DNA of 64,000 nucleotides from Acidimicrobiales bacterium (GTDB taxonomy: Bacteria; Actinomycetota; Acidimicrobiia; Acidimicrobiales; SZUA-35). Positions 4,138 to 41,792 of the stretch are shown here, piece by piece. How positions within the stretch are numbered: position 1 is the stretch's first letter; every line of letters starts with the position of its first letter. The notes beneath the pieces were generated by a model. That model was not told the origin of the DNA and did no database searches. It saw only the letters and a list, made by a program, of their open reading frames with translations. The position numbers and the translations under genes were made by a program. Location of the stretch: contig JAHDBV010000003.1 in assembly GCA_020630195.1 (NCBI GenBank), positions 1 through 64,000 of the forward strand. Direction: 5' to 3'.

Positions 4138-5289
4138 GTGTCGGAACCGATCACCCTCGCCGCACTCGAGACCGACCCCGATCCGATCCTCGCCGCCCTC
4201 CGACGGGACCAGCCCGTGGCCTTCGTCGACGCGCTCGACATGTGGCTCGTCACCCGATGGGACGACGTCGAGACGATGGAGAACGATCCCTCGACCTACT
4301 CCGCCGCGACGGAGCCGTCGTTCCTCGCCCGGGCACTCGGCGACAACATGCTGACGACCGATCCGCCCGACCTCGAACGGATCCAGGGCCTCTTCCGCCC
4401 CACGTTCCGACCGAGCGGCCGAAGCGGCGGCTTCGTGTCCGACGAGCTCGTCGCGCTGGCCGACTCGTTGATCGACGAGGTCGACCCGGCCGGCTTCGAT
4501 GTCATGACCGAGCTGGCCCAGCCGCTCGCCGCCGCCAGTCTCGCCACCGTGCTCGGCCTCGACCATCACGGCTTCGACCGCATGTGGGCCTGGTGCGAAG
4601 GGCTCTGTGCCGACATCGCCAACTTCGAGAACGACCCGGCACTCACCGAGATGGGGCGGGTCGCTCGCGAGGAGCTGGGTGAGGCCATCGCCACCCGGAT
4701 CGACACGGCCCGTGACGCCGACGACGGGAGCGGAATCGGCGCCTTCGTCCGGGCCGGGGCGAGCCCGACCGAGATCGTCAACAACGTCCGACTGATGATC
4801 TCGGGCGGGATCAACGAGCCCCGCGACGGCATCGGTCTCGTGGTCTGGACCCTGCTCGAGCGACCCGACCTCCGATCGATCGTTCGTGACGAGCCGGCCA
4901 AGATGCAACGCCTCATCGAGGAGGTGTTCCGCGTGTTCAGCCCGGTCGGCACCGTCACCCGTCAGACCACCTCCGACGTCGAGCTCGGCGGTGTCGCGAT
5001 CCCGGCCGGCGCCCTCGTCGCCGGTGTGCTCCGCTCGGCGAATCTCGACGAGACGCGCTGGACGGACCCCCTCGAGATCGACCTCGAACGACGCGAGGGC
5101 CCCCACGCCGCCTTCGCCCTCGGCGCCCACCGATGCCTCGGCGAGTGGCTCGGTCGCCAGGTCGTCCGAGTCGGCGTCGAGCGCCTCCTCGCCCGGTTCC
5201 CCGACCTCCGCCTCGACCCCGGCGCCGACGTGACGCTCCACGGATTCGAGTTCCGCGGCCCGACGTCGGTCCGGGTGATCGCGGCCTGA
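4138..5289 (+). CDS. cytochrome P450
   Basis: Heme-thiolate monooxygenase of 383 aa, a usual length for soluble bacterial class I P450s. Seen are the I-helix ISGGINEPRDG (the GGxxEP variant common in actinobacteria), the K-helix EVFR (ExxR) and the heme loop FALGAHRCLGEWLGR with the Cys ligand. The GTG start follows AGGAGG at 9 nt. Electrons must come from a ferredoxin and reductase encoded elsewhere. The SDR gene 49 bp downstream on the same strand suggests a two-step hydroxylation and oxidation, which is inference. Confidence 0.95.
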   Translation: MSEPITLAALETDPDPILAALRRDQPVAFVDALDMWLVTRWDDVETMENDPSTYSAATEPSFLARALGDNMLTTDPPDLERIQGLFRPTFRPSGRSGGFVSDELVALADSLIDEVDPAGFDVMTELAQPLAAASLATVLGLDHHGFDRMWAWCEGLCADIANFENDPALTEMGRVAREELGEAIATRIDTARDADDGSGIGAFVRAGASPTEIVNNVRLMISGGINEPRDGIGLVVWTLLERPDLRSIVRDEPAKMQRLIEEVFRVFSPVGTVTRQTTSDVELGGVAIPAGALVAGVLRSANLDETRWTDPLEIDLERREGPHAAFALGAHRCLGEWLGRQVVRVGVERLLARFPDLRLDPGADVTLHGFEFRGPTSVRVIAA

Positions 5290-5338
5290 CGCCGGAGGCC
5301 TCGACGGTTCGCGCCGTCGATGACGCGACACTGACCCG

Positions 5339-6088
5339 ATGACCGAGCGCACATCACACGTCGCCCTCGTGACCGGCGCGTCCCGGGGGCTCGGAGCCGC
5401 CATCGCCCGACGCCTCGCCGCCGACGGCTGGTCGGTCGCCGTCAACGGGATCGACGCCGAGGAGACCGAGGCCGTCGCGGCCGCCATCGTCGCCGACGGG
5501 GGCACGGCCGCCCCGTTCGTCGCCGACGTGCTCGACGAGGCGACCATCGTCGCGATGGTCGGCGACATCGCCACCGTGCTCGGACCGGTCACCTGCCTGG
5601 TGCTCAACGCCACCGGCCCACAGCCCGACGGCGACGTCGACGGCACCGGGTGGCCCGAGGTCGAGGCCGAACTCGACTTCTTCGCCCGATCACCGCTGAT
5701 CGTCGGGCAGGCCGTGCTCCCGGGTATGCGGGCCGCCGGAACCGGGCGCATCGTGCACATCGACTCCGAGGTCGTCTCGAAGACCCCCGCCAACCGGGTC
5801 GCCTACACCACGGCCAAGGCCGCCCAGGTCGGCCTCGCCCGGAGCTGGGCCGTCGAGCTCGCGGCCGAGGGCATCACGGTCAACACCGTCGCCCCCGGGT
5901 TCGTGCCGGTGGAACGCCACGACGTCGTCGCCGAGGTGCACCGCGAGGCCTACCGGGCCACGGTGCCGATGGGCACGATGGGCAGCCCCGACGACGTCGC
6001 CGCCGCGGTGGCCTTCTTCGCCTCCGACGACGCCCGCTTCATCACCGGCCAGCGACTCCTCGTCGACGGCGGCCGCTCACTCGGCTGA
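5339..6088 (+). CDS. short-chain dehydrogenase/reductase (FabG-like)
   Basis: NAD(P)-dependent oxidoreductase of 249 aa. The Rossmann glycine motif is TGASRGLG near the N-terminus, the catalytic Ser and YxxxK are IDSE...AYTTAKAA, and the C-terminus FITGQRLLVDGG is standard for classical SDRs. The usual NAG after beta-4 is LNATG. It follows the P450 gene on the same strand after 49 bp and may act on its product; the substrate is unknown. Confidence 0.92.
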   Translation: MTERTSHVALVTGASRGLGAAIARRLAADGWSVAVNGIDAEETEAVAAAIVADGGTAAPFVADVLDEATIVAMVGDIATVLGPVTCLVLNATGPQPDGDVDGTGWPEVEAELDFFARSPLIVGQAVLPGMRAAGTGRIVHIDSEVVSKTPANRVAYTTAKAAQVGLARSWAVELAAEGITVNTVAPGFVPVERHDVVAEVHREAYRATVPMGTMGSPDDVAAAVAFFASDDARFITGQRLLVDGGRSLG

Positions 6089-27825: not shown

Positions 27826-30120
27826 GTGAGCATTCTCGGCACCCGGGTGCAACGGGTCGAAGACCCGAAGTTCCTGACCACCGGCGGTGTGTACACCGCC
27901 GACCTCGACGACGAACGTCTGGCCGGCGCCGGCCACGTCACCTACGTGCGTTCGACCATGGCCCACGCCACGATCGTGTCCATCGACACCTCCGATGCCG
28001 TGGGGATGGACGGCGTGATCGGCGTCTACACCGCGGCCGATCTCGGGCTCGAGCCCGTACCGCCCTTCGCCCTCGCCAATCCGGAGATGACCAAGACGCT
28101 CCTCGCCACCGGCAAGGTCCGCTATGTCGGCGAGCCCGTGGTGGCCGTCGTCACCGAGCGCGCCGACCAGGGCGAGGACGCGGCCGAGGCCGTGTTCATC
28201 GAGCTCGAACCGCTGCCGGCCGTCGCCTCCATCACCGACGCCCTCGCGGCCTCCGGCGACTCCCTGCTCTGGCCCGACACCGGCTCCAACGTGTGCTCGG
28301 CATCGACCGCCGTCGGCATGCCCGCCAACACCGACCCGGCCGAGTTCTTCGCCGGGTGTGAGGTGATGGTCGAACACACCATCACCAACCAGCGTGTCGC
28401 CGCCTGCCCGCTCGAGGTCCGCTCGGCCGCCGCCGCCTGGATCGACGGTCGCCTCGTCCAGTGGGACTCCACCCAGCACGCCCAGGGCGCGCGGGACGCA
28501 CTCGCGGCCGCCAACGGGGTCGAGGCCGACGCCGTGCGCGTGATCGCCCCCGATGTCGGTGGCGGCTTCGGCGCCAAGATCGGCGTCTACCCCGAGGAGA
28601 TGTTGCTCGGTGGGATCGCCAAGGCCTGCGGTCGGCCCGTGCGCTGGACCGAGACCCGCTCGGAGAACATGCTCTCCCAGGGGCAGGGCCGGGCCCAGCT
28701 GCAGACGATCCGTCTCGGCGGCACGCCCGACGGTCGGGTGACCCACTACCAGCTCGACGTCACCCAGGACGCCGGCGCCCATCCCGAGATCGGGGTGGCG
28801 CTGCCCACCTTCATGACCCGGACCATGGCGCCCGGTGTGTACGACATCGAGAACGTCGAGTGTGAGACCCGCTGCGTCGTGACGAACACCGCGTCGATCG
28901 TGGCCTACCGCGGTGCCGGACGACCGGAAGCCACCGCCGCCATCGAACGGGGCATGGACCTGTTCGCCCTCGAGTGCGGGCTCGATCCCGCCGAGGTGCG
29001 TCGCCGCAACTTCTTCGCACCGTTCACCGAGCCCGTCGAGAACCGGATGACCGGCGTCTACGACGTCGGCGACTACATCGGTTCGCTCGAGAACGCCCTC
29101 GACGCCGCCGGCTACGACGAGCTGCGGGCCGAGCAGGCCCGCCGACGCGAGTCGGGCGACCAGAAGCTGCTCGGCATCGGGGTGTGCACCTACGTCGAGA
29201 TCACCGGCGGCGTCGGTGACTTCTCCGAGACCGGCCGCATCGTCGTCCACGGCGACGGCACGGCGACCGTCTACACCGGCACCTCCCCGCACGGGCAGGG
29301 CCACGCCACGGCCTGGGCGATGATCGCCCAGGACTCGACGGGTATCCCGATGGAGTCGGTGACGGTGATCCACGGCGACACCGACGTGGTGCCCTCCGGC
29401 CTCGGCACGATGGGATCACGCTCGCTCCAGCAGGGCGGCATGGCCGTCAAGCAGGCGGCGGACGCACTCGTCGAGAAGGCGAAGCCGATCGCGGCGTCGC
29501 TGCTCGAGGCGAACGAGGCCGACATCGTGCTCGACAACACCAACGGCACCTTCCACGTCGCCGGGACACCCGCCGTGTCGAAGGGGTGGCCGGAGATCCA
29601 CGCCGCCGCCACCGAGCAGGGTGAGGATCTCGACGTCGAGGAGGTCTTCAAGGCCGCCATGCCGACGTTCCCGTTCGGGACCCACGTGGCCGTGGTCGAG
29701 GTCGATCGCGACACCGGTCAGGCCCGCCTCGTGCGTCACGTGGCCTGCGACGACGCCGGGGTCATCATGAACCCGATGCTCGTCGACGGTCAGGTCCACG
29801 GCGGCATCGCCCAGGGTGCGGCCCAGGCCCTCTACGAAGAGGTCGTCTACGACGCCGACGGCAACAACCTGACCTCCAACTTCATGGACTACGCCATGGT
29901 CTCGGCCGCGGAGCTGCCGAGCTACGAGCGGATCCCGATGGAGACCCCGACGCCGGTCAACGCCCTCGGGGCGAAGGGCATCGGGGAGTCGGGCACGATC
30001 GGTTCGACGCCGTCGATCCAGTCGGCCGTCATCGACGCCCTCTCGCACCTCGGCGTGCGCCACATCGAGATCCCCTGCACCCCCATGCGGGTGTGGGAAG
30101 CGATGAACGCCGGCGGCTGA
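27826..30120 (+). CDS. coxL: form II CO-dehydrogenase-family molybdenum hydroxylase, large subunit
   Basis: 764 aa Mo-cytosine-dinucleotide-binding catalytic subunit. The loop AYRGAGRPEA is the form II signature; true aerobic CO dehydrogenases (form I) have AYxCSFR, so CO as substrate is doubtful and a purine, aldehyde or heteroaromatic is possible. Mo-pterin contacts seen: DVGGGFGAKIGVYPEE, TSPHGQGHATAWAMIAQ and the catalytic-Glu region AKGIGESGTIGSTPSIQSAV. The start has AGGGGGA at 8 nt. It has its own promoter and terminator, separated from coxS-coxM by an opposite-strand gene. Confidence 0.92.
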   Translation: MSILGTRVQRVEDPKFLTTGGVYTADLDDERLAGAGHVTYVRSTMAHATIVSIDTSDAVGMDGVIGVYTAADLGLEPVPPFALANPEMTKTLLATGKVRYVGEPVVAVVTERADQGEDAAEAVFIELEPLPAVASITDALAASGDSLLWPDTGSNVCSASTAVGMPANTDPAEFFAGCEVMVEHTITNQRVAACPLEVRSAAAAWIDGRLVQWDSTQHAQGARDALAAANGVEADAVRVIAPDVGGGFGAKIGVYPEEMLLGGIAKACGRPVRWTETRSENMLSQGQGRAQLQTIRLGGTPDGRVTHYQLDVTQDAGAHPEIGVALPTFMTRTMAPGVYDIENVECETRCVVTNTASIVAYRGAGRPEATAAIERGMDLFALECGLDPAEVRRRNFFAPFTEPVENRMTGVYDVGDYIGSLENALDAAGYDELRAEQARRRESGDQKLLGIGVCTYVEITGGVGDFSETGRIVVHGDGTATVYTGTSPHGQGHATAWAMIAQDSTGIPMESVTVIHGDTDVVPSGLGTMGSRSLQQGGMAVKQAADALVEKAKPIAASLLEANEADIVLDNTNGTFHVAGTPAVSKGWPEIHAAATEQGEDLDVEEVFKAAMPTFPFGTHVAVVEVDRDTGQARLVRHVACDDAGVIMNPMLVDGQVHGGIAQGAAQALYEEVVYDADGNNLTSNFMDYAMVSAAELPSYERIPMETPTPVNALGAKGIGESGTIGSTPSIQSAVIDALSHLGVRHIEIPCTPMRVWEAMNAGG

Positions 30121-30289: not shown

Positions 30290-32293
30290 TCAGATCTGCT
30301 TGAACTGCACCCGGCGGTTGGCGGCGAGCGACTCGGCGTCGTCGCCCTCACCGAACTGGGTGGTCTCGCCGTAGCCGACCGGCTCGAGGATGTCCCGGCT
30401 CACACCGAGCGACACGAGCGCCTCGACCACCGACTCGGTGCGGGCCTGCGACAGTGCCTGGTTGGCGGCGTCGTCGCCCCGCACGTCGGTGAAGCCCTGG
30501 ACCTCGATCCGGGTGCCCTCGGGAGCGTTGAGCATGATCTCCGCCGCCCGCTCGAGCGTGGGGCCCGAGGCGGTCAGGATCTCCGCCGAATTCGTGGCGA
30601 ACTGGACCGGCTCCAGCTCGACGAGGGCGTTGAGCTCGTTGGCGGTGGGGGAGTCGACCTCGACCTCGTCGATCACCTCGGTCACGCCGGTGATGGCGGC
30701 CGGGGCGGCGAGGGCGGCGGCCTCGAGGCTGTCGGACACGACGGTGCCGGTCACGGTGACCACACCGTCATCGACCGTCACGTCGAGCCCGCTGGCGACG
30801 ACGTCGACGGCGTCCTGGGCATCGCCCTGGATCACGGTCATCTCGTCGACGACCTCGGTGACGCCCTCGATGCCGGCGACCGCGTCGATGGCGGCGGCTC
30901 GGTCGGCCTCGTCGTCGACGATGCCGGTGAGGGTGATCACGGTGCCGTTGGCCGTGGCCGTGCCGTTCTGCACCCCGGCGGCCTCGACGGCGGCCTGGGC
31001 GTCGGGCTGGAGCACGACGAGCTGGTTGTCGACCGACTCGATGCCCTCGACGTCGGCGGCGGCACTCTCGGCGGCGATGGAATCGGCCTCGGTCCCGACG
31101 AACCCGGTGAGCACCGTTGCCGCACCGGTGGTGGCGGCGGCGATGCCGAACGACCCGACGGCGGCGTCGACGTCCGGTGCGAGGTCGACGACCTCGACGA
31201 CGGTCGTCGTGGCGGCCTCTTCCTCGGCCTCGGTGGTGGTCGGGGCGACGGTCGTGGTGGTGACCACGACGTTGCCGTCCTCGTCGACGACCTCTTCGGC
31301 GTCGGTCGGAACGGAGGTCACCACGGCGGCGACGTCCTCGAGGTCGCCACCATCACGCCAGGTGTTCCAGGCGGTGACACCGATCACGGAACCGACCACG
31401 AGCAGGCCGGCGGCCACGATCTGGCTGTCGGCGGACCAACCCCACTCCGGGATGAGCTTGTCGCCGTAGCCGGCGGCCCCGCCACCGCCACCGCCGGTCG
31501 AACCGGTGGAGGCGGATCCGGCACCGGCTCCTGCGGCGGCACCTCGGCCCGAGGCCGAACCCGTCGCGGCACCCGCGCCGTCGTCATCGGAGACCGAGCC
31601 ACGCACGGTCGAGGCCGCAGCGGCTCCACCGGCGGCGACGGTGCCGGCGGCACCGGCCACCGCACCGGAGGCCGACCCGGCGGCCCCACGAGCGGCATCG
31701 GCAGCGGAGCCGGCAGCATCGCCGACGGCCCCGGTCGCGCCGGACGCCGCAGCGGCGGCACCTCCGGCGGCGGCCGCTCCGGCCCCCGCAACGGCGGCAC
31801 CCGCACCACCGACGGCATCGGTGGCCGAGCCCGCGGCACCGGCGGCGGCGTCCTTGGCACCCGCCGCGGCGTCCTTGGCCGAATCGGCGGCACCGGCGGC
31901 TGCGTCCTTGGCGCCTGCCGCGGCGTCCTTGGCGGAATCGGCGAGCCCGGAGAGCTTGTCCTTCATCTTCCCGCCGAACTTGCCGGCGCCGGCGGCCAGG
32001 CCACCGGCGGCAGCGGCAGCGGCGCCCTTGCCAGCGCCTGCGGCACCGGTCACGCCGTCGATCGCACCGGCGGCGGCGTCGCCGGCCGCACCGGCGGCAT
32101 CGCCCGCCGCTCCGGTCACACCATCAGCGGCACCACGCACGGCCTCACCGGCCGTACCGGCGGCGTCGCCGGCCGCACCCCGTGCGGCCCCGGCGGCATC
32201 GGCCGCCGCGTCGCCGTCGAGCAGCTGTCGCTCGATGGCTTCGGTGTATTCGGTGGAAGCGGACTCAGCGTCCTGCGGTCGTTCTTCGCCCAT
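30290..32293 (-). CDS. OmpA-domain protein with three BON domains and a long Ala-rich repeat region
   Basis: 667 aa from ATG 32293, just after a GAGGGAGAACCGC leader. Residues ~30-280 are Ala/Gly-rich low complexity with repeated [18 protein letters not shown]-type units. One membrane helix follows (about 290-312, [18 protein letters not shown]), then a Thr/Glu linker, three BON modules (about 350-540, each with a V-x-L-T/V-G strand such as [14 protein letters not shown]) and an OmpA peptidoglycan-binding domain ([20 protein letters not shown]...RRVQF). The order helix-BON-OmpA resembles mycobacterial ArfA/OmpATb. It lies between coxL and coxS on the other strand. Confidence 0.85.
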
Positions 32294-32412
32294 TGCGGTT
32301 CTCCCTCGTCTCGCACCCGACGCTTCGGCGGGCGGAGAAGTCGCGCAGAAGTCTGACACGTCCGGTCCCGCCCGTCCGTCGAACGATCACATCCGCCCCG
32401 ACGGCGACCTCC

Positions 32413-32432
32413 GGCGCCACTTGTGTGGCGCC
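32413..32432. promoter_or_regulatory. hairpin/operator between the OmpA/BON gene and coxS
   Basis: GGCGCCAC-TTGT-GTGGCGCC, an 8-bp perfect inverted repeat, lies 56 bp upstream of coxS in the 194-bp divergent region. It could be an operator for either gene or a leader structure. I found no second clear signal in this gap. Confidence 0.35.
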
Positions 32433-32487
32433 TCCGTCGCTGTGCCAGACTCGCCGTCGCTGTTCATCACGACTCAGGGGGACGCCG

Positions 32488-32964
32488 GTGGAAGTCACCG
32501 TCACCATCAACGGGCAGGCCGTCTCGGCCGACGTCGAGGCCCGCACCTTGCTCGTCCACTACATCCGTGACACCGCCGGCCTCACGGGCACGAACGTCGG
32601 GTGCGACACCTCGTCGTGTGGCGCCTGCACCGTGCATCTGAACGGCGAGGCCGTGAAGAGCTGCACGATGCTCGCCGTCCAGGCCGACGGCCAGGACGTC
32701 ACGACCATCGAGGGCCTCGCCCCGTCCGCCGACGAGATGCATCCGATGCAGGAGGCCTTCATGCAGTGCCATGCGCTGCAGTGCGGCTACTGCACTCCCG
32801 GCATGGTCATGGCGTCGGTCTCGTTGCTCGACGAGAACCCGAACCCGTCCGAAGCCGAGGTCCGCGAGGGGCTCGAGGGCAACCTCTGCCGCTGCACCGG
32901 CTACCACAACATCGTGAAGGCCGTGCTCACGGCCTCCGGTGCCACCGAAGGGATGCCGGCATGA
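32488..32964 (+). CDS. coxS: molybdenum hydroxylase small (2Fe-2S) subunit
   Basis: 158 aa from GTG 32488, with AGGGGGA upstream; the track start is 102 codons too early. The N-terminal plant-type 2Fe-2S site is [16 protein letters not shown] plus a later Cys in SCTML. The C-terminal helical 2Fe-2S site is [10 protein letters not shown] and [12 protein letters not shown]. All eight Cys are present. It passes electrons from Mo in CoxL to FAD in CoxM. Stop overlaps coxM (ATGA). Confidence 0.95.
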
Positions 32965-33788
32965 TCCCCGTCGCCTTCGACTACCAGCGGGCCGATTCGG
33001 CCGAGGCGGCGCTCGCCGCGCTCGCCGAGCACGGCGACGAGGCCAAGCTCCTCGCCGGTGGCCACTCGCTGCTCCCGATGATGAAGCTGCGCCTCGCCTA
33101 CCCGACGGTGCTCGTCGACATCGGTCGTCTGAACGACCTGTCGTACGTGCGCGACGGTGGTGACCACGTGGCCATCGGTGCGCTGACCCGCCACCGCGAC
33201 ATCGAGATCGATCCGATGATCGCCGAGCACGCGCCGCTGCTCGCCCGCGCCACCGCCAACGTCGGTGACCCGCAGGTGCGCCACCGCGGCACGCTCGGTG
33301 GTTCCCTCGCCCACGCCGACGCGGCGGCCGACCATCCCTCGGCGCTGTTGGCGCTCGGTGGGTCGGTGGTCGTGCGCTCGGCCGACGCGGAGCGCGTGAT
33401 CGACGCCGGCGACCTGTTCACCGGCTTCCTCGAATCGGCACTCGAGCCGACCGAGATGATCACCGAGATCCGCATCCCCAAGCACACGGGTGCCGGCTGG
33501 AGCTTCCAGAAGTTCAACCGCCGCGCCCAGGACTGGGCGATCGTCGGCGTGTCGGCGCAGCAGGTGAACGGGCACGCCCAGGTGGCGCTCGTGAACATGC
33601 ACCCGACCCCCGTGCGGGCCACCGCGGTCGAAGAGGCCCTCGCCAACGGCGCCTCGGCGGCCGACGCCGCGGCACTCGCCGCGGAGGGCATGGAGCCGTC
33701 GAGCGACCTCAACGCGAGCGTCGAGTACCGCCAGCACCTCGCACGGGTGCTGGTCGGGCGGGCGCTCACCGACGCGGGCATTGCCTGA
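32961..33788 (+). CDS. coxM: molybdenum hydroxylase FAD-binding medium subunit
   Basis: 275 aa from ATG 32961. FAD-binding motifs are [16 protein letters not shown] and [18 protein letters not shown], then [18 protein letters not shown]. The C-terminal domain fits CoxM/CutM proteins. The start is inside the coxS stop. Unlike canonical cox operons (M-S-L) or many form II operons (S-L-M), coxL here lies upstream and separate. Confidence 0.94.
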
Positions 33789-34740
33789 CCGGAGCGGCGA
33801 CCGCCTGCGCGACGCACACGACGTGGCCGACGGGGACGGCGCGACACGGATCGTGTCGTTGCTGCCGTCGGCCACCGAGATCCTCTTCTGGCTCGGCCTC
33901 GGCGATCGAGTGGTCGGTGTCACCTACGAGTGCACCGTCCCCGCCGAGGCCGCGTCGCGTCCGCACGTCACCGACACGATCATCCCGGCCGGAGCGACCC
34001 CCGCCGAGATCGACACCGTGATCCGCGAGGCGGTGGCCGAGGGCCGGGCGCTCTACGAACTCGACCGTGACCTCCTCGCCGAGCTCGATCCCGACCTGAT
34101 CGTCACCCAGGACCTCTGCCGGGTCTGTGCACTGCCGGCGGGCGACGTCGACGCGGCGGTGGCCGAGCTCGGGTGTCGAGCCCGGGTGTGTTCCTACGAC
34201 CCGATGACCCTCGACGAGGTGCTCGACGGCATCGAGGCCATCGCCGTGGCCGCCGGCGCCGGCCCGGACGGGTTCGCCCGGATCGAGGCGGCCCGGGAGC
34301 GGCTCGCCGCCCAACGGGCCCGCGGGGCGGCGATCACCGACCCGCCCGAGGTCCTGCTGCTCGAGTGGGTCGACCCGCCGTTCGGACCGGGGCACTGGAT
34401 CCCCGATCAGCTCGCCGCGGCCGGGACCGTCCCGGTGCTCGCCCACGCCGGCGGACGGTCCGCCGCCACCGAGTGGACGTCGATCGTCGACGCGGACCCC
34501 GCCGTCGTGCTCGTCGCTCCCTGCGGATTCGACGAGACGGCTGCGGCCGAGCAGGCCCGCAGCGTCGTCGACCGCGACGAGCTGTCGGATGTCGCCGCCG
34601 TCCGGAGCGGACGTGTCCACCACCTCGACGGCGACAGCCACGTGGTCCGTCCGGGGCCCCGGCTGCTCGACGGCATCGATGCGATGTACGACCTCGTCCA
34701 CGGTGGGAGCTCCGGCGAGCCCACCGGACCGCGGCAGTAA
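33781..34740 (+). CDS. BtuF/helical-backbone substrate-binding-like protein without signal peptide
   Basis: 319 aa. [32 protein letters not shown] is the start of cobalamin/siderophore-type binding proteins. Later blocks ([36 protein letters not shown]) match the actinobacterial cobalamin-binding-protein-like group. No signal sequence or lipobox, so it is probably cytoplasmic. Start TTG 33781 overlaps coxM by 8 bp; GTG 33823 is an alternative nearer the domain start. Its place between coxM and xdhC suggests a link to cofactor handling, which is inference. Confidence 0.72.
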
Positions 34741-34751
34741 CCTCGATCCCG

Positions 34752-35066
34752 ATGCGAGAGATCCTCACCGACCTGCAGCGCTGGCGCCGCCAGGGCAAAC
34801 GTGTCGCCATCGCCCGCGTGGTCGACGTCGAGGGTTCGGGCCCCCGTCAACCCGGCGCGGCGATGGCCGTCGCCGAGGACGGCGAGGTGGCCGGCAGCGT
34901 GTCGGGTGGTTGTGTCGAGGGCGCCGTGGTCGAGGCGGCGCTCCAGTGTCTCGAGACCGGTTCCCGGGAGCTCGTGACGTTCGGCTACTCCGACGACGAC
35001 GCCTTCGCGGTGGGCCTCACCTGCGGCGGCACGATCCATCTCTTCCTCGAACCGCTGGACTGGTGA
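34752..35066 (+). CDS. XdhC/CoxI family N-terminal domain protein
   Basis: 104 aa from ATG 34752; the track hides it inside a 297-aa frame. GSGPRQPGAAMAVAEDG and GSVSGGCVEGAVVEAAL are the XdhC/CoxI N-domain signatures, and LTCGGTIHLFLEP ends the domain. XdhC proteins bind and sulfurate the Mo cofactor before insertion into the hydroxylase. The C-terminal half is encoded separately just downstream (TGATG overlap). Confidence 0.85.
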   Translation: MREILTDLQRWRRQGKRVAIARVVDVEGSGPRQPGAAMAVAEDGEVAGSVSGGCVEGAVVEAALQCLETGSRELVTFGYSDDDAFAVGLTCGGTIHLFLEPLDW

Positions 35067-35863
35067 TGTCCGACGATCCCACCCTGTTCGACCGGGTGGC
35101 GTCCGCACTGGCGGCCCAGGAGGCCGCCGCGCTCGCCACCGTGATCGACGGCCCGAACGCCGGCGCGAAACTCCTGCTCGACACCGACGGTGCCCTGCTC
35201 GGATCGCTCGGCAACGACGATCTCGACCGGGTGGTCGGCCGGGACCTGCAGGGGGAGCTCGCCGCCGGGACGTCCGGCATGCGCCACTACGGCGAACGAG
35301 GCGAGGCCCGGGCCGACGAGGTCCGCGTGTTCGTCGAGACCTACGCGCCGCCGCCGCGGATGTTGATCTTCGGCGCCGTCGACTTCACGGCCGCGCTCGT
35401 GCGGGTGGCGAAGATCCTCGGCTACCGGGTGACGGTGTGCGACGCCCGTCCCGTGTTCGCCACGAAACGTCGCTTCCCGGCCGCCGACGAGGTCGTGGTC
35501 GACTGGCCGCACCGCCTGCTCGACGAGATCGGTGACGAGCTCACGGGCCGCGATGCGGTGTGCGTGCTCACCCACGACCCCAAGTTCGACGTGCCGGCCG
35601 TGATCGCGGCCCTCGAGACCGGCGCCGGCTACATCGGGTGCATGGGGTCGCGGCGCACCACCGACGACCGCAACGCGCGGCTGCGCGACGAAGGGGTTCC
35701 GGAGGCCGACATCGAGCGGATCTGGGCGCCGATCGGGCTCGATCTCGGAGGTCGGACACCCGAGGAGACCGCCATCTCGATCTGTGCGGAGATCATCGCC
35801 CGGCGGGCCGGCAAGGACGACGTCAAGCCACTCACCCGCACCGAGGGCGACATCCACGGCTGA
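35066..35863 (+). CDS. XdhC family protein, Rossmann-domain half
   Basis: 265 aa from ATG 35066. A partial N-domain (about 1-90) leads into the XdhC Rossmann domain: MLIFGAVDFTAALVRVAKILGYRVTVCDARPVF, VLTHDPKFDVPAV and GYIGCMGSRRTT. The C-terminus IGLDLGGRTPEETAISICAEI is family-typical. Together with the preceding protein it should mature the Mo-MCD cofactor of CoxL. Confidence 0.9.
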   Translation: MSDDPTLFDRVASALAAQEAAALATVIDGPNAGAKLLLDTDGALLGSLGNDDLDRVVGRDLQGELAAGTSGMRHYGERGEARADEVRVFVETYAPPPRMLIFGAVDFTAALVRVAKILGYRVTVCDARPVFATKRRFPAADEVVVDWPHRLLDEIGDELTGRDAVCVLTHDPKFDVPAVIAALETGAGYIGCMGSRRTTDDRNARLRDEGVPEADIERIWAPIGLDLGGRTPEETAISICAEIIARRAGKDDVKPLTRTEGDIHG

Positions 35864-35959
35864 CCGTCGGTCAGTCACATCCCGGGTGGTCCCACCCCAT
35901 CTGGGCCGCCCGACCCATCGGACACTGGATTCCGATGCCCGCGGGCCGATGGAGGTCCG

Positions 35960-38383
35960 ATGGCCATGCCGGATCTCTCACGTGCGCTCGCCCCCTGGCG
36001 GCGGCTCCAGCTCGGCCAGAAGGCCGCGCTCGCACTGCTGGTGTCCTGTATCCCGCTCGTGTTGATGGGTCTGCAGATCTCGGCGATCGCCGGTGAGCAG
36101 CTGCGGGCGCAGACCCTCCAGTCGCTCGAACTGGCCTCGACACTCGGCTCGGAACGGGTGTCGGTCTCGATCGATCACCTCGAGGAACGTGTCGCCGAGA
36201 TCGCGGCCACCCCCGAGTTCCGCGACATCGTCGCCGACCACGCCGAACGCTCGTCGGAGAGCACGGTGCAGCGCTTCGCCGACATCACGGCCGACCTGCG
36301 CACCGGACTCGCCCCGGACGGCCTCGTCGGGATCGCGGTGTACGAACGCGGCCAGCCGACACCCCTCGCCGCCGACGGGTTGCTCGCCCCCGAGTCGACC
36401 TCGACGGCCCTGCGTGACGCCACCCCCGACGGGATCGTGAACGTCGCCGACGCCTTCGTCGCCGACGGGGTCGCCCACCTGCCGGTCGTGCGACGCGTGT
36501 CGGTCGATGGTTCGAAGTCGATCGAACTCGTGACCCAGTGGAGCCTCGACACCGTCGTCCCCACCGACGACCTGTCCGGACTCGGCCGCACGGCCCGGTC
36601 CGAACTCGGCGCGTTCCAGGCCGACGGCCGGGTCGTCGTGCTGCGCTCCTGGAACGCCGACCGGGTCGGTGTCGCCGAAGCCCTCGAGGTCTCCACCACC
36701 GCGGCCGGGATCCAGATCGACGACACCGGCGAGACGGTGCGGGCCACCGCCCGGATCGACGGGCTCGGTTGGGTCCATGTGACCGAGGTCGAACGCGACG
36801 AGCTCTACGCCGATCTCGCCGGGGTCCGTGACGCCCTCATCGCGGTGTTCATGGGCGCCGGACTCGTCGTGCTCACCGTCGGAGCGGTGCTGTTCCGCTC
36901 GTTCACCCGCCGCCTCGGTCGGGTGACCGCGGTGGCCGAGTCGATCGCCGAGGGCGACCTCACCGTCCGGATCGACGACCCCCAGGCCGACGAGGTCGGT
37001 CGTCTCTCGACCGCGTTCGACACGATGGCGGTGAGCCTCGCCACCGACATCGATCGCCGGGAACGGGTCGAGCAGCAGCTCGCCTTCCAGGCCACCCACG
37101 ACGCCCTCACCGGCCTGCCGAACCGGATGGCCCTGACCGACCATCTCGACACACTCGTCGCCGACCCGACGAACCACCCGGTCTCGGTGTGCTTCGTCGA
37201 CCTCGACGGGTTCAAGGCCGTCAACGATCAGCTCGGTCACGCGGCCGGTGACGAACTCCTCAGCCGGGCGGCACAACGGCTGTCCGACGTGACCCGGACC
37301 CACGACTACGTGGCCCGACTCGGTGGTGACGAGTTCGTCCTCGTGTTCCCCTCCACCGGGGCCAACGAGGCCTCCGCCATGGCCGAGCGGATCGTCGCCG
37401 CACTCGAACTGCCCTTCGAGGTCGCCGATGCCGAGGTCGAGATCTCGGCCTCCATCGGTGTGGCCGACGCGACCGATCCGACCGAGGCCAGTGAGCTCAT
37501 CCGCCAGGCCGACATCGCCATGTACCGGGCCAAGGCGCTCGGCAAGGGCCAGGCCGCCGTCGTCGACCCCGAGACGTTGCGGGAACTCGACGATCGCCTC
37601 CAGATGGCCGCGCAGCTGCGTGAGGCCCTCGTCGGTGACGGGCTCGAGTTGGTGTTCCTCCCCATCGTCGATCTCGCCAGCCGTCGCCTGGTGGCCGTCG
37701 AAGCCGAGGTCTGCTGGCATCACCCCGACCGCGGCGTCATCGCCGGCGACGAGTTCGAGCAGTTCCTCACCAGTGCCGGCCTCGAGTCGTTGGTCGACGA
37801 GTGGACGATCCGCACCGCACTCGGCACCTGGGCCGACCTCACCGTCGACGGCTTCGCCATCGACGACCTCGAGCTCGCGATCAACCTCGGCAAACGCACC
37901 TTCCTCACCCCGAAGACCCGCCAGGTCCTGCGGAAGTCGCTGAACCGGCACGAGCTCCGCGCCGACCGGCTCCGGCTCGAAGTCGACGAGACGGTGTTGC
38001 GGGCCAACCGTGACGGCCTCGCCGATGCGTTCGCCGGTTACCGGGCCCTCGGTGTGCACGTGATCATCGACCGGTTCGGCTCGGACTACTCGAACCTCGA
38101 TCGTCTCCGTCGCCTCGCGATCGACGGGGTGAAGCTCTCGGCCGGCGCCGATGGCCTCACCGACCGGGACGATCTCCCGGGCAGAGCCCTCGTCGGCTCA
38201 CTCGCCACCCTGGCCGAGGCCGCCGGACTCCGTGTCGGTGCGACGGGTATCGATCGCGCCGACGCGCGTGACCGGCTCGTCGAGCTCGGCTGCCACGAAG
38301 GTCAGGGCTCCTGGCTCTCGGAGCCGCTGACCCGACGCCAGCTGGAGCGTCTCGTCGAGTCCCGCCACCTGCTCGAAGCCTGA
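35960..38383 (+). CDS. membrane GGDEF diguanylate cyclase with a degenerate EAL domain
   Basis: 807 aa. Helix at about 24-45, extracytoplasmic sensor (about 46-290), second helix (about 293-312), HAMP linker, GGDEF domain (about 370-530) and EAL-like domain (about 550-800). The GGDEF half looks active: RLGGDEFVLVF, with the inhibitory I-site RTHD exactly five residues before GGDEF. The EAL half has lost key residues: EAL is EAE, the R of the xxRW motif is Cys, DDFG is DRFG and the KID motif is KLS. It probably makes c-di-GMP but does not degrade it. Start has GGAGG at 5 nt. Unusual neighbour of Mo-enzyme maturation genes. Confidence 0.9.
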   Translation: MAMPDLSRALAPWRRLQLGQKAALALLVSCIPLVLMGLQISAIAGEQLRAQTLQSLELASTLGSERVSVSIDHLEERVAEIAATPEFRDIVADHAERSSESTVQRFADITADLRTGLAPDGLVGIAVYERGQPTPLAADGLLAPESTSTALRDATPDGIVNVADAFVADGVAHLPVVRRVSVDGSKSIELVTQWSLDTVVPTDDLSGLGRTARSELGAFQADGRVVVLRSWNADRVGVAEALEVSTTAAGIQIDDTGETVRATARIDGLGWVHVTEVERDELYADLAGVRDALIAVFMGAGLVVLTVGAVLFRSFTRRLGRVTAVAESIAEGDLTVRIDDPQADEVGRLSTAFDTMAVSLATDIDRRERVEQQLAFQATHDALTGLPNRMALTDHLDTLVADPTNHPVSVCFVDLDGFKAVNDQLGHAAGDELLSRAAQRLSDVTRTHDYVARLGGDEFVLVFPSTGANEASAMAERIVAALELPFEVADAEVEISASIGVADATDPTEASELIRQADIAMYRAKALGKGQAAVVDPETLRELDDRLQMAAQLREALVGDGLELVFLPIVDLASRRLVAVEAEVCWHHPDRGVIAGDEFEQFLTSAGLESLVDEWTIRTALGTWADLTVDGFAIDDLELAINLGKRTFLTPKTRQVLRKSLNRHELRADRLRLEVDETVLRANRDGLADAFAGYRALGVHVIIDRFGSDYSNLDRLRRLAIDGVKLSAGADGLTDRDDLPGRALVGSLATLAEAAGLRVGATGIDRADARDRLVELGCHEGQGSWLSEPLTRRQLERLVESRHLLEA

Positions 38384-38409
38384 CCCGAGCCCCGCCACGT
38401 CCGCGCCGT

Positions 38410-38415
38410 TAGGTT
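38410..38415 (+). promoter_or_regulatory. leaderless-type -10 box of mocA-coxG
   Basis: TAGGTT ends 6 nt before ATG 38422; no Shine-Dalgarno sequence. Confidence 0.5.
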
Positions 38416-38421
38416 GCCGGC

Positions 38422-38988
38422 ATGCGTCGTCGGGGAATCGCGGGTGTGTTGTTGGCCGCCGGGGCGGGATCCCGGTTCGCCGGGCCCGACCACAAGCTGC
38501 GATCCGAGGTGCGTGGCCGCCCACTCGTGTCGTGGCAGCTCGACGCCATGGCCGCCGCCGGGTTCGACCGCTGCTTCGTCGTCACCGGTGCGGTGGACCT
38601 GTCCGACCTGGTGCCCGACGGCGTGACCGAGGTGCACCATGCCGGATGGGCCGACGGCCAGGCCGGATCACTGCAGGCCGGTATCACCGCCGTCCGTGAA
38701 GCGGAGCTCGGCGCCGCGGTGGTGGGCGTGGCCGACACCCCCGGGGTCACCGTCGCCGCGTGGCGGGTGGTGGGGGCCTCGGCCGGGCCGATCGTGGTGG
38801 CGAGTTTCGACGGAGCCCACCGCCCACCGGTGAAGCTGGAGTCCGAGGTCTTCGACCTGTTGCCCACCGACGGCGACGAAGGAGCACGCGCCCTGCTCCG
38901 GGATCGGCCGGATCTCGTTTCTGCGGTACCGTGCCCGGGCGACCCATCCGACATCGACACCGAGGAAGACCGGAACCGATGGAGCTGA
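38422..38988 (+). CDS. mocA: MocA/MobA-like molybdenum cofactor nucleotidyltransferase
   Basis: 188 aa. The nucleotide loop GVLLAAGAGSRFAGPDHKL and the Mg-site region GVADTPGVT define the MobA/MocA family. In a cluster with cox genes it most likely makes molybdopterin cytosine dinucleotide, the cofactor of CoxL. The end overlaps coxG by 10 bp, so the two are coupled. Confidence 0.85.
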   Translation: MRRRGIAGVLLAAGAGSRFAGPDHKLRSEVRGRPLVSWQLDAMAAAGFDRCFVVTGAVDLSDLVPDGVTEVHHAGWADGQAGSLQAGITAVREAELGAAVVGVADTPGVTVAAWRVVGASAGPIVVASFDGAHRPPVKLESEVFDLLPTDGDEGARALLRDRPDLVSAVPCPGDPSDIDTEEDRNRWS

Positions 38989-39722
38989 CCAACGACTTCG
39001 TCGTCGACCGACCCGTCGACGAGACCTGGACGATCCTGAACGATCTCGAGTTCATCGCCCCCTGCATGCCCGGGGCCCAGCTCCAGGAGATCGAGGGTGA
39101 CGAGTACCGAGGGGTCGTGAAGGTCAAGGTGGGCCCGATCACCGCCCAGTACAAGGGCAAGGCCCGGTTCGTCGAGCAGGACGAGGCGAACAAGACCGCC
39201 AAGCTCAAGGCCGAGGGGCGCGACCCCCGCCAGGGCAACGCCAACGCCATGGTCACCGCCACCATGAGCGCCGGCGAGGCGCCCGACACGACCAACGTGA
39301 CGGTGCACACCGATCTCGCGCTGTCCGGCAAGATCGCCAGCTTCGGCCGCGGCGCCATCGAGGACGTCTCCAAGAAGATCCTCGGCCAGTTCGTCGACAA
39401 CCTCCGCGACAAGCTCGCCGAAGGTGCCGGTCCCGCCGCCGAGGCCGCCGCGCCCGCGGCGGCTGCCGCTCCGGCCGCTGCCGCTGCTGCGCCCGCCGCT
39501 GCCGCCGAGGCCGTCGCCGATCCCGCTCCGGCCGCCGAGCCGGCGGCCGCCGCCGAGCCCGCCGCACCGGCGGTGCGCAAGATCGACTCGCCCGAGGCCG
39601 AGCCCGTCGACCTCCTCGACGTCGCCGGCGACTCGATGGTGAAGCGCCTCGCACCGGTGCTCGGTGGCCTGGTGCTCCTGCTCGTGCTGCGGATGATCCT
39701 CCGCGGCGGCAGCGACGACTGA
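38979..39722 (+). CDS. coxG: CoxG-type SRPBCC protein with Ala-rich linker and membrane anchor
   Basis: 247 aa from ATG 38979; the track starts 73 codons early. MELTNDFVVDRPVDETWTILND and CMPGAQLQEIEGDEYRGVVKVKVGP are typical of CoxG, which attaches the hydroxylase to the membrane. After the SRPBCC fold (about 1-147) comes a ~50-residue Ala/Pro/Glu linker. One C-terminal helix (VLGGLVLLLVLRMIL) follows. Ten-bp overlap with mocA. Confidence 0.9.
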   Translation: MELTNDFVVDRPVDETWTILNDLEFIAPCMPGAQLQEIEGDEYRGVVKVKVGPITAQYKGKARFVEQDEANKTAKLKAEGRDPRQGNANAMVTATMSAGEAPDTTNVTVHTDLALSGKIASFGRGAIEDVSKKILGQFVDNLRDKLAEGAGPAAEAAAPAAAAAPAAAAAAPAAAAEAVADPAPAAEPAAAAEPAAPAVRKIDSPEAEPVDLLDVAGDSMVKRLAPVLGGLVLLLVLRMILRGGSDD

Positions 39723-39730
39723 CAGCGTCG

Positions 39731-40261
39731 ATGACGGATCGGGTGGTCGCCTCGACGGCTGCGGAGGCCGGTGCCGACGCGCCGACCGACGACCTGGCCG
39801 AGGTCGTGACGCGGCTGCTCGGACGCAAACCGATGGGACGGTTCTCCGTCGTGGTCGCCCGACCCGACGGCACCCCGGCGGTGCTGCGCAACGCCCCGCT
39901 GCTCGACGACGGCCGTCCGATGCCGACGACGTTCTGGCTCGCCGATCCGGCGCTCAACAAGGCGATCGGCACCCTCGAAGCCGAGGGCGGGGTCAAGGCC
40001 GCCGAAGCGGCGATCCCCGCCGCGGACATCGCGGCGACCCACGCCCGCGCCGATGCCCGTCGGGCCGCCGAACTCCCCGCAGGCCACGACGGCCCCGCAC
40101 CGTCGGGCGGCGTGGGCGGCACCCGACAGGGCGTCAAGTGCCTGCATGCGCACTACGCCAACTGGCTCGCCGGTGACGAGGACCCGGTCGGGGCATGGGT
40201 CGATGCCCGGCTCCGACTCGTCGGCCGACACTGGCGTGACGACCGGGGCGACGCCGCATGA
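39731..40261 (+). CDS. DUF501 family protein
   Basis: 176 aa. LLGRKPMGRFSVVVARPDGTPAVLRNAPLLDDGRPMPTTFWL and VKCLHAHYANWLAG are DUF501 hallmarks. The function of the family is unknown, but it is nearly always found between a DivIC-like gene and ppx in actinobacteria. Here only the ppx side is retained; the divIC neighbour is 12 kb away. Four-bp overlap with ppx. Confidence 0.9.
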   Translation: MTDRVVASTAAEAGADAPTDDLAEVVTRLLGRKPMGRFSVVVARPDGTPAVLRNAPLLDDGRPMPTTFWLADPALNKAIGTLEAEGGVKAAEAAIPAADIAATHARADARRAAELPAGHDGPAPSGGVGGTRQGVKCLHAHYANWLAGDEDPVGAWVDARLRLVGRHWRDDRGDAA

Positions 40262-41181
40262 CCAGGGTGGCGGTGGATCTCGGCACCAACACGCTGCGAT
40301 GGCTGATCGACACCGGTGACGGTGCTCCTCGGCGGGCCGTGCGGATGTGCGGGCTCGGTCGAGATCTCGAGCGCACGAAGGCCTTCCATCCCGACGCCCT
40401 GGCCGCGGTCGACGCCGGCCTGGCCGAGCTCGCCACCGAACTCGCCGGTCTCGCCGGCCCCCGCATCCGTGCCGTGTCGACCGCCGTGGCCCGGCGTGTC
40501 GACGACGTCGAACCGCTCGCCGCGCTGGTGCGGTCGCACCTCGGGGTCGAACTCGAGGTCGTCTCCGGCGAGGACGAAGCGGCACTCGCCGCCGCCGGGG
40601 TGACCGCCGGGCTGCCCGATCTCGCCGGTGCCGGCCCCGTCGTCGTGATCGACATCGGGGGCGGTTCCACCGAGTTCGTCCTGCTCGACGACGGCGCCGT
40701 GACGGCGGCGATGTCGCTCGACATCGGCGCCCGCACCGTCACCGACCAGTACCTCGACAGCGATCCTCCCCGGGCCGCCGAGCTGTCGGCCGCTCTCTCG
40801 GTCATCGAGCTCTATCTCGACGATCTCCGTCGGGATCGTCCGGCCATCACCGACGCCATCGACGACGGTGCCTCCGTGGTGATGGTCGCCGGCACGGCCA
40901 CCACCGTCGCCGCCGTGGAGATCGGACTGCTCGAGTGGGATCCCGCCCGGGTGCACGGCTTCGAGCTCGACAAGCCGGCGGCCGAGGACGTCTACCGGAC
41001 CCTCGCCACCGAGTCGGCCGAGGATCGGGCCTTCAACCCCGGCCTGCCCGCCGACCGGGTCGACGTGATCGTCGGCGGCTGTTGCGTGCTCGTCGAGACC
41101 ATGCGCCAACTCGGCATCGAGATGGTGACCGTCTCGGTCAGCGACCTGCTCGACGGGCTCCTGGCCTCGGTGGGGGACTGA
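40258..41181 (+). CDS. ppx: exopolyphosphatase (Ppx/GppA family)
   Basis: 307 aa, the short two-domain actinobacterial form without the C-terminal HD part. ASKHA phosphate loops are VAVDLGTNTLRWLI and VVIDIGGGSTEFVL; the catalytic Glu region is SGEDEAALAAAG. Start inside the DUF501 stop (ATGA). It hydrolyses polyphosphate or (p)ppGpp-related substrates. Confidence 0.92.
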   Translation: MTRVAVDLGTNTLRWLIDTGDGAPRRAVRMCGLGRDLERTKAFHPDALAAVDAGLAELATELAGLAGPRIRAVSTAVARRVDDVEPLAALVRSHLGVELEVVSGEDEAALAAAGVTAGLPDLAGAGPVVVIDIGGGSTEFVLLDDGAVTAAMSLDIGARTVTDQYLDSDPPRAAELSAALSVIELYLDDLRRDRPAITDAIDDGASVVMVAGTATTVAAVEIGLLEWDPARVHGFELDKPAAEDVYRTLATESAEDRAFNPGLPADRVDVIVGGCCVLVETMRQLGIEMVTVSVSDLLDGLLASVGD

Positions 41182-41792
41182 TGGCCACCATCCCGGCACC
41201 CACCGCCACGACGCTCATCGGTCGGCGCGTGATCCTGCGGCCGCTCCGCCAGGACGACTTCGGCTCGTGGCGCGAGGTCCGTCGTCGCAACCGCGACTGG
41301 TTGACCGTGTGGGAGCCGTCGCGGCTGCCCGGCAGTCCCGACGTCGTCGAGGACCGCAATGCGTTCGCCCTGCGCTGCCACGCACGGCATCGTGACTGGC
41401 AGAACGGTTCGGGGTACGGCTTCGGTGTGTTCGTCGCCGGTCACTTCGCCGGTGAGGTGAACATCAACTCGGTCCAGCGGGGTGCGTTCCAGAACGCCTA
41501 CATCGGCTACTGGATCGACGAGGCCAGGGCCGGCCACGGCTACACCCCCGAGGCCGTCGTGCACGTGCTCCGGTTCGGGTTCGAGACGCTCGGTCTCCAC
41601 CGCCTCCAGATCGCCATCGTGCCCCGCAACACCGCCTCGCTGCGTGTGGTCGACAAACTCGGCGTCCGTTCCGAGGGGGTCGCCCAGCGCTACCTCGAGA
41701 TCAACGGCACCTGGGAAGACCACGAACGGTTCGCCATGACGACCGAGGAGTGGACGGCCCGTCGCTCGGAGCTGCTGGGCGCCTGGCTGTAG
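41181..41792 (+). CDS. RimJ/RimL-type GNAT acetyltransferase
   Basis: 203 aa from ATG 41181 (TGATG with the ppx stop); the track frame begins far upstream. RRVILRPLRQDDFGSWREVR, YWIDEARAGHGYTPEAV and LHRLQIAIVPRNTASLRVVDKLG are typical of enzymes that acetylate ribosomal protein N-termini or small molecules. Last gene of the DUF501-ppx operon. Confidence 0.9.
   Translation: MATIPAPTATTLIGRRVILRPLRQDDFGSWREVRRRNRDWLTVWEPSRLPGSPDVVEDRNAFALRCHARHRDWQNGSGYGFGVFVAGHFAGEVNINSVQRGAFQNAYIGYWIDEARAGHGYTPEAVVHVLRFGFETLGLHRLQIAIVPRNTASLRVVDKLGVRSEGVAQRYLEINGTWEDHERFAMTTEEWTARRSELLGAWL

Follow-up and report, generated by a model that had tools for sequence, protein, structure and literature searches.

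CdgC, a Streptomyces membrane protein with a 10TM-PAS-PAC-GGDEF-degenerate EAL layout, was shown to be an active cyclase despite its highly degenerate EAL domain (PMC6205966). LapD has a periplasmic sensor, a HAMP domain, a GGDEF domain, and a degenerate EAL domain; its GGDEF domain is degenerate as well, and its EAL motif reads KVL with a pocket arginine, R450, at the centre of the c-di-GMP pocket (PMC3032553). In Actinobacteria, c-di-GMP-loaded RsiG holds the sigma factor WhiG inactive; the targets of Rubrobacter WhiG include c-di-GMP turnover genes, the published WhiG-class (flagellar/WhiG sigma) consensus is TAAA / GCCGATAA, and twin-motif RsiG has been reported in three of four Acidimicrobiales (PMC8325347). 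The membrane sensor CoxC is linked to a gene cluster for CO dehydrogenase, whose cox genes it controls as an MHYT transcriptional regulator (PMC11347149). A search of the literature for a diguanylate cyclase associated with xdhC or with xanthine dehydrogenase returned nothing relevant and, to our knowledge, c-di-GMP signalling in uncultured Acidimicrobiales is little studied.

Here, we report a gene for a predicted sensor diguanylate cyclase with a degenerate EAL domain (807 aa; 35,960–38,383, + strand) in the window, i.e., the whole 64,000-nt stretch of Acidimicrobiales DNA that was analysed. Like CdgC, the product is an actinobacterial membrane protein with a conserved GGDEF and a highly degenerate EAL domain; the two differ in the sensor (10TM-PAS in CdgC, dCACHE-HAMP here) and in the genome context, and the accessible part of the CdgC report mentions no WhiG-type promoter (PMC6205966). 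The order of parts is that of LapD, but the GGDEF domain here is intact and the pocket arginine is replaced by a cysteine, C585, the counterpart of LapD R450 (PMC3032553). With the WhiG/RsiG/c-di-GMP switch the locus shares the promoter consensus, an actinobacterial WhiG and c-di-GMP turnover genes among the candidate targets, whereas the target here is embedded among Mo-hydroxylase maturation genes, with a transcript that looks leaderless (PMC8325347). CoxC is likewise a membrane sensor associated with a gene cluster, that of a CO dehydrogenase, but it is no c-di-GMP enzyme, in contrast to the dCACHE plus GGDEF-EAL protein described here (PMC11347149).

A predicted sensor cyclase with a degenerate EAL domain

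The ORF has no internal stop and its coding signal is among the strongest in the window. The protein is built, in order, of an extracytoplasmic dCACHE-fold sensor, a transmembrane helix, a HAMP domain (residues 311–360; 36,890–37,039; PF00672, 4e-13), a GGDEF domain (378–530; 37,091–37,549; Pfam, 6e-46), and a degenerate EAL domain (551–789; 37,610–38,326; Pfam, 2e-42), all on the + strand. The sensor (about residues 36–292; 36,065–36,835) has no Pfam match and no sequence-level match to dCACHE domains. Its fold was assigned from an AlphaFold2 model of residues 36–292 (pLDDT 85, pTM 0.80), for which Foldseek found dCACHE ligand-binding domains in the PDB (2p7j, 3lie, 6ios, 7k5n) with E values down to 1e-7 at a moderate TM of about 0.6; the model shows the long N-terminal helix and the two PAS-like lobes by which dCACHE domains are recognized. 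This domain would face outward from the membrane. The initial annotation had described a membrane sensor domain and had suggested the substrate or redox state relevant to the hydroxylase as its signal. Seven sensor residues are invariant among the orthologues (R, G, F, V, W, G, W), none of them Cys or His, and this together with the extracytoplasmic dCACHE fold speaks against redox or haem/CO sensing in the cytoplasm.

The GGDEF motif is intact at residues 455–459 (37,322–37,336), with the I-site RTHD at 446–449 (37,295–37,306), exactly five residues upstream. An I-site RxxD at this distance from GGDEF is common among diguanylate cyclases, not universal. In the window gene and its 11 full-length orthologues (together the 12 orthologues), R446 and D449 are invariant, as is the signature of diguanylate cyclase metal and GTP residues (GGDEF, DLDGFK, ND, GH, DxLT, and AMYRAKA.GK). 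When the window gene is compared with that of its congener, GGDEF is the most constrained domain (dN/dS 0.11), ahead of EAL (0.20) and the sensor (0.31). From these motifs we predict that the 807-aa protein is a diguanylate cyclase, apparently an active one.

The EAL half departs from the canonical active site at each of the positions first annotated: EAE at residues 581–583 (37,700–37,708), C585 for the R of EALxR (37,712–37,714), DRFG for DDFG at 704–707 (38,069–38,080), and KLS for KID at 725–727 (38,132–38,140). To these we add ATGID for (A)EGVE (38,240–38,254), which places T762 at the catalytic glutamate. The orthologues have in common DR or DK for DD and A or T for the EGVE glutamate; R or K replaces the second Asp of DDFG in 11/12, the exception being genome G008, in which the first Asp is lost instead (TDFG, together with AGVD). 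The catalytic Glu of EGVE and the DD of DDFG are never all kept, so that none of the 12 orthologues has an intact EAL active site. That the EAL domain still hydrolyses c-di-GMP and makes the protein bifunctional could be argued from the residues kept in the window protein (E581, N642, E674, E677, D704, K725, and Q782); we regard it as highly improbable, given the loss of the second Asp in nearly every orthologue and the T or A at the EGVE glutamate in all of them, a change by which a recent classification calls EAL domains inactive (PMC12900916). The fold itself is retained, with matches to single-domain EAL structures at a TM of about 0.9, and the dN/dS of 0.20 indicates that purifying selection continues to act on the dead EAL. 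The EAL half is thus, judging from its residues, most likely a pseudo-phosphodiesterase that keeps the fold and, largely, the first metal-site residues and has lost the catalytic base and the second Asp. The earlier reading of an active-looking cyclase with a dead EAL domain therefore agrees with the motifs of the whole orthologue set.

The LapD-like order of parts also raises a different reading, in which the protein acts chiefly as a receptor for c-di-GMP (LapD- or FimX-like), its dead EAL domain binding c-di-GMP and signalling to a partner or outward through the HAMP domain. Most orthologues keep the Arg beside the EAL motif and the KID, both c-di-GMP-pocket residues. C in place of R, and KLS, are confined to the genus of the window, its congener having Q and KLA, while most other genera keep R and KID; C585 and KLS make c-di-GMP binding by the EAL domain doubtful in this genus. 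Since, moreover, the GGDEF domain is intact, unlike that of LapD, the window protein has lost the pocket Arg and the D of KID, and the NCBIfam LapD model scores 126 bits against a cut-off of 1020, we consider a receptor role distinctly unlikely. An active cyclase with a pseudo-phosphodiesterase domain is the reading that we retain.

The Mo-hydroxylase locus and the history of the gene

The cyclase gene lies between xdhC (Mo-hydroxylase maturation, PF13478; 35,066–35,863, with an approximate start, the conserved part beginning near 35,066) and a gene for a mocA-like molybdenum cofactor nucleotidyltransferase (38,422–38,988, 38 nt downstream), as had been annotated. A coxG-like gene (38,985–39,722; PF06240), a DUF501 gene and ppx follow; upstream are the genes for the 2Fe-2S subunit (32,488–32,964), the FAD subunit (32,961–33,788), a BtuF-like protein and the molybdopterin large subunit (27,826–30,120). 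The genes of xdhC, mocA, coxG, and the three subunits are all on the + strand. Form I CO dehydrogenase (cox) has an AYXCSFR loop in its large subunit. The active-site loop here is AYRGAGR and the curated CODH models score under their cut-offs, indicating a cox-like Mo-hydroxylase, not a form I CO dehydrogenase; the cluster, first compared with cox systems, is thus a cox-like one.

Several features of the surroundings are recorded here as such. The large-subunit gene beside divIC (27,826–30,120 in the window; L154 3494–5770) is absent from this place in most family members; it is at the same place in G043, of another family, and the window may keep the older arrangement. An OmpA/BON-domain gene (30,290–32,359, − strand) lies between the large-subunit and FeS-subunit genes and has homologues at the locus in many relatives, and the BtuF-like binding-protein gene (33,781–34,740), between the FAD subunit gene and xdhC, is also kept in many of them. 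In an outgroup family (L155 7241–9320), the eno-ppx locus has, between xdhC and the gene of the FAD subunit, what seem to be genes of the coxD and coxE types. A second GGDEF-EAL gene of the same genome (C151) is convergent with another Mo-hydroxylase large-subunit gene; this pair (L116 5946–12,935; L117 8672–13,931) was seen in both genomes of the window's genus and nowhere else, and we took it as coincidence.

We surveyed 60 relatives, mostly metagenome bins; the same Acidimicrobiales family is represented by 39 genomes. Full-length orthologues, 39–75% identical in alignment, were found in 11 of the 60, all of the same family and distributed over six genera. In 9 of these 11 genomes a single contig shows the gene flanked by xdhC and mocA; the G004 contig starts immediately ahead of the cyclase gene, so that the mocA side alone is visible, and in G008 the FeS-FAD-xdhC-GGDEF-EAL block is inverted as one unit. 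In G012 the copy at this locus (L068, about 4500–6000) is broken: it retains the EAL half and the beginning of the sensor, is without the GGDEF domain and has a shifted frame; the hydroxylase genes are still present there, and the break may be an assembly fault. No orthologue was found away from xdhC. Across 84,980 species genomes, orthologues were confined to Acidimicrobiales/Actinomycetota bins matching the genomes of the family, plus one unrelated cyanobacterial match. Among 397 genomes of the order, those outside the family gave matches at the general GGDEF-EAL level (about 300 bits or less) and no orthologue; inspection of the eight best extra-family matches showed no xdhC nearby and, where the EAL motifs could be read, canonical ones.

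Such a distribution might suggest a cyclase dedicated to the Mo-hydroxylase, one that senses its substrate or a related signal, ties c-di-GMP to enzyme activity and is transcribed within the maturation operon. It agrees with the same-strand position between xdhC and mocA, conserved across genera g1, g2, g4, g7, and g9, with the short gap to mocA (22–88 nt in 9/10), with the block that moved as a unit in G008, and with the lack of orthologues apart from xdhC. However, 18 genomes in g3, g10, and g11 have the same xdhC but not this gene (xdhC itself is in 34 of the 39 family genomes); in most of these 18, mocA is directly next, in three a large-subunit gene is there, and one showed no mocA on the stretch. 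The cluster also occurs in other families, where it has no cyclase gene, and the hydroxylase therefore does not need the cyclase. In G002, G025, and G035 the contig ends at the locus, so that presence of the gene is not readable there. Conservation of the gene next to xdhC and mocA thus extends over a clade of six genera; the 18 xdhC-bearing genomes of three genera are without it, and no orthologue was found in other families.

In a rooted FastTree tree (modest support at some nodes; outgroup of other families with few genes), the carriers all belong to one clade, within which the gene was lost once, in the g5+g11 lineage; this fits one gain and one loss. The midpoint tree agrees with the rooted tree on this history, and the tree of the cyclase protein itself is compatible with vertical descent. 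The genomes of g11 have no FeS gene of the cluster, and those of g5 have none of the Mo genes searched. The loss of the cyclase gene hence coincides with that of the local hydroxylase; this is one event, suggestive and no more, and one gain plus one loss are too few to show a coupling of gene and hydroxylase. The whole eno-ppx locus, furthermore, is syntenic across the family and the cyclase gene is vertically inherited, which makes the conserved adjacency weak evidence of function.

A conserved promoter-like site and the FliA/WhiG sigma factors

A FliA/WhiG-type promoter, of a class that serves motility and development genes, is predicted at 35,926–35,952 (+ strand), within the 96-nt gap between xdhC and the cyclase gene: a −35 element TGGA (35,926–35,929), a 15-nt spacer and a −10 element GCCGATGG (35,945–35,952), followed after 7 nt by the ATG. 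This layout recurs before all 12 orthologues (TNRA-N15-GCCGATRR), the spacer being exactly 15 nt every time and the start codon 6–9 nt after the site; in four genes the position of the site shifts the likely start codon 27–30 nt upstream of the aligned start. Column by column, T (12/12), A (11/12), the T two bases downstream (11/12), and CCGA (12/12) are kept while spacer and flanks drift. Every one of the 12 sites matches the TAAA / GCCGATAA consensus at 7–10 of 12 positions, the window's own site departing from it at 4/12. By this match, the cyclase gene is predicted to have its own conserved FliA/WhiG-type promoter, and its transcript looks leaderless, starting close to or at the start codon.

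In 1.08 Mb of DNA from the family and its relatives, TNRA before leaderless −10-like sites is enriched at 15 nt and at no other distance (0.09 vs about 0.02), seven of the eight matches at 15 nt being the cyclase gene itself. The genome of the window has 41 occurrences of the pattern vs 23 for the reversed control, so many of them must be chance. About ten lie 5–8 nt before a coding start, including those of the genes for a histidine kinase, a PAS-GGDEF protein, and a PAS-EAL protein. The leaderless candidates (L204, L208, L200, L160, L164, L184, L207, and L210), behind which there are also genes for lipoprotein-like, nucleotidyltransferase-like, and membrane proteins, form a first sketch of a WhiG regulon. 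In 39/39 family genomes a FliA/WhiG sigma gene passes the curated cut-off, and most have two. The RsiG motif E(X)3S(X)2R(X)3Q(X)3D was not found in the scanned neighbourhoods of the sigma genes, a sigma-70 promoter and terminator scan of 32,300–41,300 gave nothing above chance, and an Rfam scan of the whole window matched no c-di-GMP or Moco riboswitch. The place of the gene in a same-strand cluster, on the other hand, also allows transcription from upstream.

The role of the cyclase at the hydroxylase locus

The own conserved promoter points to a c-di-GMP/WhiG regulon, and the cyclase gene probably belongs to such a signalling regulon rather than serving as a sensor for the enzyme. We judge it reasonably likely, on sequence grounds, that the protein is a ligand-gated membrane diguanylate cyclase with a pseudo-phosphodiesterase EAL domain, transcribed from its own FliA/WhiG-type promoter in a WhiG-type c-di-GMP regulon, with a positional link to the hydroxylase. 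In this mechanism, the dCACHE sensor would bind a small molecule outside the membrane, the HAMP domain would relay the change to the GGDEF domain, and the latter, as its intact motifs suggest, would make c-di-GMP under I-site feedback, the dead EAL domain most likely serving dimerization or allosteric control. Transcription from the FliA/WhiG-type promoter would place the gene in a WhiG-type sigma regulon with other c-di-GMP genes; because c-di-GMP-loaded RsiG restrains WhiG, the product of the cyclase would damp its own promoter.

The dedicated cyclase considered above has in its favour that a single lineage of the clade lost the gene, the one in which the hydroxylase FeS gene went missing as well. 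The 18 xdhC-bearing genomes that have no cyclase gene, the own conserved promoter and the absence of Cys and His from the invariant sensor residues count against it, and we hold it to be unlikely. The same observations bear on the tie of c-di-GMP output to the hydroxylase that the initial annotation had put forward: the coincident loss fits it, but the 18 genomes and the promoter count against it. Its suggestion to look for c-di-GMP-binding motifs next to the gene led to none, no such domain being found in the neighbouring gene products scanned; PilZ in the window's genome is on another contig and nowhere else. On the best account, the cyclase came to its place in a Mo-hydroxylase locus by chance or by recruitment.

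mocA and coxG, a short distance behind, may be read through from the cyclase promoter. It is conceivable, at low probability, that the WhiG-type promoter drives a sensor cyclase-mocA-coxG operon and that an RsiG-like c-di-GMP control forms a negative feedback loop also setting Mo-hydroxylase maturation; if true, this would be a link from c-di-GMP to Mo-enzyme maturation, none having been described in the literature that we found.

The locus is also a warning that conserved neighbours, taken by themselves, can point to the wrong pathway. The reach of c-di-GMP to molybdenum-enzyme maturation becomes a testable question, and the conserved WhiG-type promoter before the cyclase, at a fixed chromosomal place, is a concrete handle on the WhiG regulon of this group.
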